DNA of 64,000 nt from Sphaerisporangium rubeum (GTDB lineage Bacteria > Actinomycetota > Actinomycetes > Streptosporangiales > Streptosporangiaceae), in contig NZ_JACHIU010000001.1 of NCBI RefSeq assembly GCF_014207705.1, positions 248,001-312,000 on the forward strand, in the 5' to 3' direction. Position 1 is the stretch's first letter; each line of letters opens with the position of its first letter. Shown here in pieces: positions 1 through 33,002 of the stretch. A model generated the notes under the pieces. That model made no database searches. It saw only the letters and a program-made list of their open reading frames with translations, and had not been told where the DNA came from. The position numbers were made by a program, and so were the translations under genes.

Positions 1-604
1 CGGCGGAGGCCGGGCCGCGCACGTAGGAAGGCAGCCGCCAACGTGCCAGTTCGGCCAGGTAGACGGGGTCGGCGGCGAGTTCTTCCTCGGCCATGGCGGC
101 GTAGTCGAGCATGTCGGCGACGGCGGCCCGGTCCAGCGGCACCAGGCAGGCGCCTTCGCGGCTCGCGGCGATCCGCAGGTCGGCCAGCGCCGCAGGCGGG
201 ACCGGGGCCCCGTCGAACGGCTCCCTGTTGGTGCGGCGCAGGGGGATCGCCTCGTACAGCCGGCTCTCGTGCGGTGTGGGTGGGCCTGCCGCCACCATGC
301 CGGCCACGGCCAGCAGGCGTGGCTCGGTGCCGGGTCGCGGCGTGACCACGGGGTGGTACCCGGCGCATCGGATCGCGAGACGCAGGTTGAACAGGGCCGC
401 GCCGCAGCTCACGTACATCGAACGGCCGCGGGGGTCGCTCACGGTGAGACGGCGGCCGGGGTCGGCGTACAACGCGACGGCCTGGTGGCGCGTGACGCGG
501 AACCGCCACGGCTGGGTGTTCTGCACCGACGGCGCCGCGCCGGCCGCGACGAGCAGACGCCGGACGCCGAGTCCGGTGGCGAGCGGATCGATCATGGCGG
601 TCAT
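1..604 (-). CDS. Acg-like nitroreductase family protein (3' part cut by window edge)
   Basis: The frame is open across the left edge, so 201 N-terminal codons are visible. The start ATG at 604 follows an AAGGAG at 613-618 with 8-nt spacing; a second ATG at 595 is possible. The N-terminus contains APSVQNTQPWRF, the conserved FMN/substrate-side motif of the actinobacterial Acg/Rv2032/Rv3131-type nitroreductases, then SCGAALFNLRLAIR and a PLRRTNREPF segment, all characteristic of this family. These are putative flavin-dependent enzymes that in mycobacteria belong to the DosR dormancy regulon; their true substrate is unknown. A paralogue lies at 31132-32100. A DosR-like box about 80 bp upstream (686-699) supports hypoxic control (inference). 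Confidence 0.9.
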   Translation of the reverse strand, partial: MTAMIDPLATGLGVRRLLVAAGAAPSVQNTQPWRFRVTRHQAVALYADPGRRLTVSDPRGRSMYVSCGAALFNLRLAIRCAGYHPVVTPRPGTEPRLLAVAGMVAAGPPTPHESRLYEAIPLRRTNREPFDGAPVPPAALADLRIAASREGACLVPLDRAAVADMLDYAAMAEEELAADPVYLAELARWRLPSYVRGPASA

Positions 605-685
605 GGCACGGTCTCCTTCAGTCGCGCTGCGGCCAGCGTCCCGCTCCGGCGGCCCGGCGTGCAGGGGCGGACGTCGCACGGCGCC

Positions 686-699
686 GGGACCTTGGTCGG
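686..699. promoter_or_regulatory. DosR/DevR-like box (GGGACCTTGGTCGG)
   Basis: The left half GGGAC and central CTTG fit the island-wide pattern GGGAC-N4-GTCCC; the right half is imperfect (GTCGG). It lies 82 bp upstream of the nitroreductase start at 604 on the opposite strand. Confidence 0.5.
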
Positions 700-730
700 T
701 GCCGCGCCGGGACTGCCGGGTGGCGAGCCA

Positions 731-747
731 ATACGATAGGGGGGTAT
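731..747. promoter_or_regulatory. CsoR-like copper operator overlapping the promoter of the next gene
   Basis: An ATAC...GTAT inverted repeat (731-734 and 744-747) flanks a run of six G. This resembles the G/C-tract operators of actinobacterial CsoR copper repressors. TATGGT at 745-750 could be the -10 hexamer of the gene starting at 794. The assignment is by resemblance only; no csoR gene is visible in the window. Confidence 0.4.
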
Positions 748-793
748 GGTGTAAAGAACACGAGCTGACCGGATCTGAAGGGAAGTGCCGCAC

Positions 794-31131: not shown

Positions 31132-32100
31132 ATGACGAACCATCTGCGTTCAGCGGTGGAGGCCGCCGTCTGGGCCCCGTCGCTGCACAACAGCCAGCCC
31201 TGGTCCTTCGTCATCGAGGGAGACGAGATCCGGGTGCGCGCCGACCCCGAGCGCTGGTCACGCGCCGGTGATCCCGAGGGCCGTGAACAGCTCATCAGTT
31301 GCGGCGCCGCTCTGTTCACCATCAGGACGGCCCTGCGCGCCGCCGGCCTGCGGCCCGTGGTCACCGTCCTCCCCGACCCCGACCGGCCCGCTGTACTGGC
31401 GTCCGTCAGGGCCGACGGCCCGATGGACGCCGACGAGCAGGTGAAGCTCATGAACGAGCAGATCCCGGCCCGGCGGACCCACCGTGCCGGTTTCGCCGAT
31501 GAACCTGTGCCGCAGGACCTGGTGACCGCACTGGTCAAACAGGCCGAGGCCGAAGGAGCACACCTGCTGCTCGTGGAGCAGGACGCGGCGGTGCGTGCTC
31601 TCGCGGCGATCACCGCCGCGGCCCAGGAGATCCAGGCCGGCGACCGTGCCTTCACCCTCGAGTCCGTCAAATGGGGCCGTCCTCCCGGCAGCCGCCACGG
31701 CGACGGCGTTCCGGCCGCCGCCTACCCCCGGGACCCGCGCCGCACGTCCCCGCACTTCGCACAACGTGACTACGCGCACGGCAACGCCTGGGGCACCGGA
31801 GAGGACCGCGGCGACGAGACCGCGACAGGCCTCGTGGCCATGATCACGACCCGCGCCGACGACCGCCGCGACTGGATCGCCGCCGGCCAGGCCCTGCAAC
31901 GCGTACTGCTGCACGCCGCCGCGAACGGCGTGCGCGCCGCCTTCCACACACAGGCCCTGGAACGGCCGCTGCTACGCGCCTTCATCCGCGAGGAACTCTG
32001 CGCCGGCGAACACCCCCAGATGATCCTCAGACTCGGCCACACCGGCACCGAGACCCACGGCGTCCGGCGTCCGGTCCACGAGGTCCTGGACGAGAAATAG
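31132..32100 (+). CDS. Acg-like nitroreductase family protein
   Basis: 322 residues. The family marks are AVWAPSLHNSQPWSFVIEGDEI at the N-terminus, SCGAALFTIRTALRAAGL, and ARRTHRAGFADEPVP. Towards the end come QRVLLHAAANGVRAAFHTQALE and PQMILRLGHTGTETHGVRRPVHEVL, typical of Acg/Rv3131 proteins, which contain two nitroreductase-like halves and bind a flavin. No physiological substrate is known. It is the paralogue of the truncated gene at 1-604. Probably transcribed from its own promoter with the box at 31082-31095, or by read-through from cydAB. It is convergent with the DevR-like gene. Confidence 0.9.
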   Translation: MTNHLRSAVEAAVWAPSLHNSQPWSFVIEGDEIRVRADPERWSRAGDPEGREQLISCGAALFTIRTALRAAGLRPVVTVLPDPDRPAVLASVRADGPMDADEQVKLMNEQIPARRTHRAGFADEPVPQDLVTALVKQAEAEGAHLLLVEQDAAVRALAAITAAAQEIQAGDRAFTLESVKWGRPPGSRHGDGVPAAAYPRDPRRTSPHFAQRDYAHGNAWGTGEDRGDETATGLVAMITTRADDRRDWIAAGQALQRVLLHAAANGVRAAFHTQALERPLLRAFIREELCAGEHPQMILRLGHTGTETHGVRRPVHEVLDEK

Positions 32101-32233
32101 CAGGCCCCGTGCTCCTGGCACGTGATCAGCCGCCACGATGGCAGGCCCGCCGTGGGGGACGGCACAGATACCGGAAACCGGCGCGCGGACCGGCCGGAAG
32201 GCAAAAGGCCATGGCCGAGGCCGCGTACGGCTC

Positions 32234-32884
32234 CTAAGTCCCTGGCGTCTCCGGCCGGTCCTTGAGCCGCGCGGCCAACGCGGCGGCCTGGGTGCGGCGT
32301 TGCATGTTGAGCTTGCTCAGCAGGTTCGACACGTAATTCTTCACGGTCTTCTCCGCGAGGAACATCCGCTCGCCGATCTGCCGGTTGGTCAACCCTTCGC
32401 CGATCAGCTCCAGAATGGTCCGCTCCTGGTCCGACAGCACCGCGAGCGGATCCTTGCGAGTCGCCTGGTCCCGCAGCCGGTGCAGCATCGCCGCCGTCGT
32501 CTGCGGGTCGAGCAGCGACTGCCCCGCCGCGACGGTACGCACCGCGCCGACCAGGTCCGAGCCGTGGATCTGCTTGAGCACATACCCCGAGGCCCCCGCC
32601 ATGACCGCCTCGAACAGCGCGTCGTCATCGGCATAAGAGGTCAACATGAGGCAGTTCAACCCCGGCACCCGGCTCCGCACCTCACGGCACACCTCCACAC
32701 CGCTGCCGTCCGGCAGCCGCACATCGAGCACCGCGACATCCGGCCGAAGCGCCGGAATCCGCGCCACCGCCGACTCGGCCGTCCCCGCCTCACCGATGAC
32801 CTCGATATCGTCCTCGGCCTCCAGCAACGCCGCGACACCCCGCCGAACGACCTCATGATCATCGAGAAGGAAAACACGAATCAT
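32234..32884 (-). CDS. devR: DevR/DosR-like NarL-family response regulator
   Basis: 216 residues from the ATG at 32884 (a GTG at 32902 lacks a ribosome binding site). The receiver domain (1-120) has D8, D9, phospho-acceptor D54 (VAVLDVRLPDG), T82 and K104, the same positions as mycobacterial DosR. The LuxR-type HTH (about 148-205) reads LTNRQIGERMFLAEKTVKNYVS. It keeps Lys179, Lys182 and Asn183, the DosR residues known to contact the GGGAC half-site. It therefore should recognise the GGGAC-N4-GTCCC sites across the island. A site lies 37 bp upstream of its own start, suggesting autoregulation. The predicted partner kinase is at 6796-8484. Confidence 0.93.
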   Translation of the reverse strand: MIRVFLLDDHEVVRRGVAALLEAEDDIEVIGEAGTAESAVARIPALRPDVAVLDVRLPDGSGVEVCREVRSRVPGLNCLMLTSYADDDALFEAVMAGASGYVLKQIHGSDLVGAVRTVAAGQSLLDPQTTAAMLHRLRDQATRKDPLAVLSDQERTILELIGEGLTNRQIGERMFLAEKTVKNYVSNLLSKLNMQRRTQAAALAARLKDRPETPGT

Positions 32885-32920
32885 AGAACCGAATCTATGC
32901 ACCTCCGGCCCCTACCGGTA

Positions 32921-32934
32921 GTGACCATGGTCCC
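32921..32934. promoter_or_regulatory. DosR-like box GTGACCATGGTCCC at the regulator's own promoter
   Basis: The right arm GTCCC is perfect and the left arm GTGAC has one change. It is 37 bp from the devR start codon. Confidence 0.6.
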
Positions 32935-33002
32935 GTGTCCCGCCGACACAGGACCTGTCCCCTCGGCCGGAGCCTCCTGGTTCGCGTCCTCGTCGCTACC
33001 GA

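Follow-up and report, generated by a model that had tools for sequence, protein, structure and literature searches.

A DosR/OsdR-type gene island of Sphaerisporangium rubeum with predicted regulator boxes before fermentation genes

Closest described systems and the Sphaerisporangium rubeum locus

Two described systems are close to the locus presented here, a gene island of approximately 33 kb in Sphaerisporangium rubeum which encodes a DosR/DevR/OsdR-type response regulator and a DevS-like kinase, and in which many genes are preceded by DosR-type boxes. The island lies in bases 248001-312000 of a single 7.5-Mb contig, and this whole 64-kb stretch is referred to as the window. The nearest described system, which an earlier sequence-only reading of the window did not name, is OsdR/OsdK of Streptomyces coelicolor (SCO0167-SCO0219; PMC5069765). 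According to passages of that paper, OsdR bound the uspA and osdR promoters and the intergenic region between genes for a universal stress protein (Usp) and pyruvate, phosphate dikinase (PPDK) by electrophoretic mobility shift assay (EMSA), and several usp genes and nar2 were lowered in the osdR mutant (PMC5069765). The core regulon given there comprises genes for Usp, PPDK, PPOx proteins, nitroreductase and Nar2; part of these are supported by EMSA or expression and the remainder are predictions (PMC5069765).

The island resembles this system, as far as those passages describe it, by its DevR-type regulator, its clustered targets, the presence of Usp and PPDK genes and that of PPOx and nitroreductase genes, the latter two with predicted sites in S. 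coelicolor (PMC5069765). Furthermore, the S. coelicolor sequence AGGGACCTTCGGCCCC, predicted before SCO0167 and SCO0216, has the 14-base core of the window site 24666 (Table 1, PMC5069765). In contrast, kinase and regulator form one operon in S. coelicolor while the two genes are 24 kb apart here, and the S. coelicolor cluster has the nitrate reductase Nar2 (PMC5069765) whereas narG, at E ≤ 1e-100, has no match in the S. rubeum genome. The boxed pfl, adhE, gapA, acyl-CoA ligase and bd oxidase genes also differ from the S. coelicolor OsdR set as it appears in that source: its main text does not use the words 'formate', 'fermentation' or 'cytochrome bd', and the uspA transcription unit includes an alcohol dehydrogenase, SCO0199, which is of another type by its name (PMC5069765).

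The second system is DosR/DevR-DosS/DosT of Mycobacterium tuberculosis, whose regulator is 62% identical to that of the island with K179, K182 and N183 in common, and whose kinases match the island kinase in the GAF-A domain at E ~1e-47. There are two kinases in M. tuberculosis, compared to one DevS-like kinase plus a fermentation set here. The Acg, Usp, Hsp20 and CBS gene types belong to the M. tuberculosis regulon and are common to both. We know of no pflB or adhE in the mycobacterial DosR regulon. A passage of PMC3087520 lists Rv3138, the number of which is close to that of dosR (Rv3133c), as 'pyruvate formate lyase activating enzyme'. In the open-licence PMC literature, which does not cover subscription journals, no title or abstract opening among those listed joins DosR, DevR or OsdR with pyruvate formate-lyase or with Streptosporangiaceae, and in two papers containing both DosR and pfl terms the passages seen do not connect the two. 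The kind of regulon is already known from OsdR, and what differs is its predicted gene content, with genes for pyruvate formate-lyase and AdhE, for GapA, and for an acyl-CoA ligase and bd oxidase. We consider it highly probable that the island brings together, in approximately 35 kb, the core regulon of a response to oxygen loss of the DosR/OsdR type, in which the regulator would activate the boxed targets, fermentation genes included.

Boxes of the island and their enrichment

With the loose pattern GGGACN4GTCCC and up to two mismatches, 88 matches were found in the window versus 100 expected, i.e. no enrichment. Sharper models were therefore needed and learnt matrices were used instead. The first one, built not from the window but from 14 OsdR sites listed in Table 1 of PMC5069765, gave five island positions scoring at least 12 compared to 0.74 expected, and none in the rest of the window. 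The second one, palindromic and learnt by expectation-maximisation with 60 orthologue loci (L001-L060) of other species, which supplied 694 upstream regions, converged on GGGAC-N-WW-N-GTCCC with ~200 sites. At a score of at least 12 it found nine sites in the island (33 kb) and none in the other 31 kb of the window, while eight sites in 400 kb of the same genome correspond to 0.66 per 33 kb. A third matrix, trained on only 30 loci (L001-L030) with loci L031-L080 held out, likewise gave nine sites in the island and none in the rest of the window, with 0.70 expected. The 400-kb background sample takes in L081 and with it site 18317, which is part of the island; when that locus is left out, the 30-locus matrix finds eight sites in 380 kb. 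At the cut-off giving 10 background matches per 400 kb, this matrix found nine island sites, and none of 200 column-permuted matrices at the same cut-off reached that number (mean 0.9, maximum five). Of the expectation-maximisation runs with control starts, ctrl_shifted and ctrl2 (unrelated palindromes) ended in low-information motifs (10 bits) and ctrl3 and ctrl4 converged on the same DosR motif.

Counted per gene, a box of at least 11 within 300 bp is present at 12/19 first-of-operon genes of the island, compared to 0/16 in the rest of the window and 6/245 in the genome sample (Fisher p 4e-12). The exact sequence GGGMCNWWNGKCCC occurs at 10 places in 7.5 Mb, four of them within the island, and exact RGGMCNWWNGKCCY at 31 places genome-wide, seven of them in the island versus 0.11 expected from the density outside. 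Six of these seven lie outside called genes and one at the extreme 3' end of cydB, in front of acg, and 20 of the 24 matches beyond the island are inside called genes, a distribution in keeping with a compact regulon set against matches that arise by chance. Elsewhere in the genome, matrix scoring was applied to the 24 pattern places, to one tandem place and to the samples. In the main, the analysis confirms the island and its boxes as a real feature.

Individual box scores in the window are those of the 60-locus matrix and, where two figures are given, take in the 30-locus matrix as well. Among the eleven main sites of the sequence-only reading, ten stand out with the learnt matrix (10.5-20.4) and lie ~35-130 bp before a called start; equally good background matches number 0 to 0.7 per 33 kb for nine main sites and 1.2 for 28407. 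The eleventh, 24654, is not a dyad (score -4.0) and represents a half-site beside 24666. Of the sites it had called weaker, 14415 (5.8) and 19885 (6.6) are at background level, with ~11 and ~8 equals per 33 kb respectively, while 19825 (9.6-10.6) is weak yet supported by boxes before adhE in relatives. The same reading noticed no site in 34-64 kb, where indeed none scores at least 12. The best one there, 51561 (10.7-11.2), is flanked by gene 50163-51485, which is without a Pfam match, and by 51675-52736, which encodes a LacI-family regulator.

Regulator, kinase and predicted targets in S. rubeum and its relatives

The regulator (32234-32884, minus strand) consists of a full-length receiver and a GerE/LuxR domain and matches 3c3w (DevR) over its length at E 3e-82, DevR being its nearest solved relative (278 bits versus 151 for VraR). 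Identity to DevR extends to 128/208 aligned residues (62%), and D54, K104, K179, K182 and N183 are kept, Asp54 being the phosphoacceptor. The sequence-only reading had already pointed to Lys179, Lys182 and Asn183, which the DevR alignment bears out as conserved. According to a passage of PMC4082495 these three residues make the DNA base contacts in DosR. In the rest of the genome the nearest homologue is at most 42% identical, while the ten best named relatives, from Nonomuraea, Microtetraspora, Herbidospora, Sphaerisporangium, Streptosporangium and Microbispora, show 87-92% identity. The box before the regulator's own gene, 32921-32934 (18.8), is placed at -100 from the called start 32827 and at ~-44 from an ATG at 32884, and forms the right edge of the island.

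The DevS/DosT-like histidine kinase (6796-8448, minus strand; GAF-GAF-HisKA_3-HATPase_c) has no second match in the genome at E ≤ 1e-30. The heme domains of both DevS and DosT are matched by its first GAF domain (E ~1e-47), and its His144 and Tyr166 stand at the positions of DevS His149 and Tyr171, with a spacing of 22 in both; in DevS these are the proximal His and the distal Tyr of the heme pocket, according to a passage of PMC4082495. Since kinase and regulator are each the only close one of their type in the genome, we infer that the two belong together. Transcription of the kinase gene may start from the double box 9208/9244 via the PPOx gene 8661-9122, which lies upstream of it on the same strand.

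Predicted targets of the stress and redox type begin at the left end of the window with an Acg-like nitroreductase gene which continues past it (1-604, minus strand; PF00881 27.1 bits, cutoff 23.5) and the divergent gene 794-1723, encoding a weak YtkA-like domain. Box 686-699 (12.1; 12.7) lies at -88 of the former and -102 of the latter. Just before 794-1723, the segment 731-747, ATACGATAGGGGGGTAT, resembles a CsoR copper-repressor palindrome; the search pattern was copied from ATACGATAGGGGGGTAT, so that its chance figure proves nothing. The PPOx-family gene 6399-6821 (plus strand; Pyridox_ox_2, PF12900 103.5 bits) is preceded at -43 by box 6350-6363 (14.5), an exact match to the genome-wide pattern. 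The PPOx-family gene 8661-9122 (minus strand; PF12900 95 bits, frame 8661-9230) and the gene for a DoxX-like membrane protein (9378-9932, plus strand; PF07681 21.0 bits, below the cutoff of 23.6) have a double box with members 36 bp apart, 9208-9221 (15.3) at -92 of 8661-9122 and 9244-9257 (12.9) at -128 of both genes. A tandem universal stress protein gene (24707-25606, plus strand; PF00582 182 bits) has box 24666-24679 at -35 (20.4), which is without equal in the 400-kb background. The gene of the Acg (Rv3131)-family FMN-binding nitroreductase (31156-32100, plus strand; NF047509 294 bits, cutoff 199, frame 31132-32100) has box 31082-31095 at -68 (15.9), within the 3' end of cydB.

Among the predicted metabolic targets, PflB (21139-23400, minus strand; TIGR01255 1166 bits, cutoff 994) is assigned as a true pyruvate formate-lyase by its model score, its Cys-Cys pair at 417 and its glycyl-radical motif (RVSGY, 725), and the gene of the activating enzyme PflA adjoins it (20351-21142, minus strand; TIGR02493 295 bits, cutoff 232; CX3CX2C at residue 50). 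One common box, 23485-23498 (17.1), a perfect GGGACN4GTCCC, lies between pflB (-91) and gapA (-89), the latter encoding a type I glyceraldehyde-3-phosphate dehydrogenase (23580-24575, plus strand; TIGR01534 396 bits, cutoff 367). The gene of the bifunctional acetaldehyde-CoA/alcohol dehydrogenase AdhE (17185-19737, minus strand; NF010378 1342 bits, cutoff 951) has the weak box 19825-19838 at -94 and is followed after 15 bp by that of PPDK (14446-17169, minus strand; TIGR01828 1182 bits, cutoff 843). Box 28407-28420 (10.5-11.5) is found at -89 of a gene encoding an ADP-forming-type acyl-CoA ligase fused to a GNAT acetyltransferase domain (25694-28324, minus strand; PF13549, PF13607, PF13380 and PF00583). 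The TIGR02717 score of this ligase (427 bits) is below the NCBIfam cutoff of 567, and hence its substrate is not certain. The fusion is one 876-aa protein, which could modify proteins besides making ATP. Finally, box 28596-28609 (18.4) lies at -91 of cydA (28693-30081, plus strand; PF01654 583 bits, frame 28486-30081), which together with cydB (30103-31098, plus strand; PF02322 353 bits) encodes cytochrome bd oxidase subunits I and II. The genome encodes another bd oxidase subunit I at G000:C1:2723675-2725006, which shares 60% identity with that of the island, and no site of at least 9.5 was found before it in the upstream stretch read.

The boxes were then looked at in relatives of the same family, counting a box of at least 10 within 350 bp upstream, with coding tiles and 3' flanks as controls. 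All 17 relatives with pflB and all nine with adhE (10 loci) were covered, along with the best-matching 29 of 103 relatives with phosphoketolase, 29 of 102 with cydA and 29 of 106 with the kinase. With the start taken at the match, a box precedes pflB in 14/17 relatives versus 0/101 coding tiles and 0/16 3' flanks; the count is 13/17 when the start is extrapolated from the query, the difference being L131, whose box (21.4) falls inside the extrapolated start, and the matrix differs between the two counts as well (L001-L030 for the former, L001-L060 for the latter). For adhE a box is present at 8/10 loci versus 2/70 coding tiles and 0/10 3' flanks. The 29 best cydA loci comprise 12 of island type (at least 80% identity), all boxed (12/12 versus 3/37 coding tiles and 0/12 3' flanks), and 17 others, one of them without upstream DNA, with boxes in 9/16 versus 5/52 coding tiles and 0/17 3' flanks. 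In other families a box precedes pflB at 13/21 loci, compared to 2/125 coding tiles and 1/21 3' flanks. Family f18 accounts for 9/11, four of these scoring 16-18.5 with the S. coelicolor OsdR matrix, and the eight misses fall in f36 (3/4 loci), f18 (two) and f4, f28 and f33 (one apiece).

In the held-out loci L031-L080, boxes of at least 11 precede the regulator in 30/42 cases, the kinase in 15/32, Usp in 23/28, the PPOx 6399 type in 18/22, the DoxX-like gene in 12/13 and Acg in 7/8. Small counts were obtained for cydA and the PPOx 8661 type (3/3 each), the Acg 1-604 type (2/3), gapA and Hsp20 (2/2 each), a flavodoxin-like gene (1/2), and the acyl-CoA ligase and pflB (1/1 each).

Beyond the island, the top-scoring pattern place (19.6, genome position 3806146, L186:2046) is found in an intergenic region, 43 bp ahead of a gene for phosphoketolase. 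Among the pattern matches outside the island it is the only one that we put forward as a likely regulon member, and as it was found without looking for a fermentation enzyme it supports the metabolic reading. Phosphoketolase has a box in 23/29 relatives (best 29 of 103) versus 1/145 coding tiles and 2/29 3' flanks, most often at -43 or -44, and this fixed distance hints at leaderless transcription.

To the left, the island extends ~1.7 kb past the window, giving ~35 kb in all, with a tandem box pair at L081:18295 (10.2) and L081:18317 (12.6) placed between an AMP-binding gene and a CBS-domain gene. Non-ribosomal peptide synthetase genes are found left of the island, at L081:3023-10129. A tRNA-flanked mobile island was considered and rejected, with zero tRNA in the window. 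The same 20-base stretch is found at 45387 and 63744, inside genes 44288-46309 and 62618-64000, which are perhaps paralogues.

Weighing of the readings and proposed mechanism

The sequence-only reading had put forward as an inference that the sites make up one regulon, and this is now supported by the site enrichment, by the presence in the island of the sole close DevR homologue and DevS-like kinase of the genome, by the conserved DNA contacts and by boxes at the same promoters in relatives. Several observations weigh against it. Kinase and regulator genes are 24 kb apart and not in one operon, the kinase gene has no strong box of its own, and a box precedes the kinase in only 5/29 relatives (best 29 of 106; 0/116 coding tiles, 1/29 3' flanks), or in 15/32 loci near a regulator gene. 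Within the island, boxes precede the regulator gene as well as genes of the Acg, Usp and PPOx types, but a strong one is missing from one of the two Usp genes and from one of the three PPOx genes: no strong box is found at the Usp gene 10586-11092 (plus strand; PF00582 61 bits), the PPOx-family gene 19944-20336 (plus strand; PF12900 103 bits), the nearest box of which, 19885, is at background level, the P-type cation-transporting ATPase gene (11117-13837, plus strand; Ca2+ type nearest, PF00122 and others, TIGR01522 558 bits, below the cutoff of 798), the Hsp20-family small heat-shock protein gene (13922-14347, minus strand; PF00011, frame 13922-14569) or the amidase gene 1769-5023. PPDK has no strong box of its own either, unless it is transcribed from adhE. 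Moreover, RGGMCNWWNGKCCY is not over-represented genome-wide (31 matches, while the reversed control gives 45), shared ancestry remains in the matrices through their training on orthologous loci, training and test genomes may share species, and 79/430 genes of the held-out loci without an island homologue are also boxed, although these may include further targets.

It is possible, albeit improbable, that the fermentation genes are passengers, only the Usp/Acg/PPOx set being controlled by the boxes and pfl, adhE and cyd being nearby under other control, e.g. that of Rex or CRP. This would agree with the weak adhE box (9.6-10.6) and with the patchy occurrence of pfl (18/120 family genomes) and adhE (10/120). 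However, the pflB, adhE and cydA boxes recur in relatives, several of them with other neighbour genes, and pflB is boxed at 13/21 loci from other families. The window shows no enrichment of Rex-type sites, and upstream of these genes there is none (no search for CRP sites was made). Co-control by Rex was rejected, with 10 matches of up to three mismatches versus 7.3 expected, one with three mismatches being inside adhE. A swap of nitrate respiration for fermentation across relatives is likewise unsupported: narG has a match in 56/120 sampled family genomes, 11/18 of those with pfl and 45/102 of the others.

Much less probable is that the boxes are read by another NarL/LuxR-family response regulator of this genome. 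There are 21 further relatives at 33-42% identity, but none of them approaches DevR as the island regulator does, whose own gene is preceded by a strong box (18.8), and 30/42 of this regulator's homologues in the test loci are boxed likewise. Chance or composition, i.e. G+C-rich palindromes picked by eye, could be argued from the loose pattern and from the slightly higher G+C of the island (0.711 versus 0.706 in the genome sample), but is contradicted by the enrichment seen when sharper models made independently of the window are used, by the permutation control and by the recurrence upstream of the same genes in relatives, and is very nearly dismissed.

The preferred reading, a DosR/OsdR-type core regulon, leads to a proposed mechanism whose steps, from oxygen sensing, kinase-regulator pairing, binding and activation to pathway flux, are deduced from gene and box content. 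Loss of oxygen from the heme of kinase 6796-8448 would render it active and able to phosphorylate regulator 32234-32884, which would then bind the GGGAC-N-WW-N-GTCCC palindromes ~35-130 bp before its targets and activate them, its own gene included. The predicted targets with boxes are the Acg-like gene 1-604 with 794-1723, PPOx 6399, PPOx 8661 with the DoxX-like 9378, adhE-PPDK, pflB-pflA and gapA, Usp 24707, the acyl-CoA ligase 25694, cydAB, acg 31156 and the regulator gene. Their output could be arranged in three layers. The first would consist of stress and redox proteins (Acg, Usp, PPOx, CBS) and the second of oxygen scavenging, cytochrome bd consuming the last oxygen. The third would be a fermentative energy supply by GapA, PPDK, pyruvate formate-lyase with its activase, AdhE, the ADP-forming acyl-CoA ligase and, elsewhere in the genome, phosphoketolase. 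The reactions of these enzymes are established, and their running in S. rubeum is what we propose: GapA and PPDK would lead to pyruvate and ATP, pyruvate formate-lyase to acetyl-CoA and formate, and AdhE would convert acetyl-CoA to ethanol with regeneration of NAD+, while the ADP-forming ligase could yield ATP and acetate and phosphoketolase would contribute acetyl phosphate. Together, this suggests that the dormancy switch also turns on an oxygen-free energy supply.

A broader proposal is more tentative, and we lean somewhat against it. In spore-forming actinomycetes the dormancy regulator might be at heart a fermentation switch, the boxes before pfl, AdhE, phosphoketolase and bd oxidase genes being an old and widespread layer. 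Supposed strict aerobes would then make formate, ethanol and acetate, and the mycobacterial regulon could be the version that lost this layer. The survival without oxygen of aerobic actinomycetes from soil, a group with many producers of antibiotics, is not well understood. If the proposed control is true, regulator-driven fermentation would make the anaerobic survival of such actinomycetes a testable question, and the DosR regulon would be a flexible module whose metabolic part varies by lineage, which may aid the reading of its mycobacterial version.

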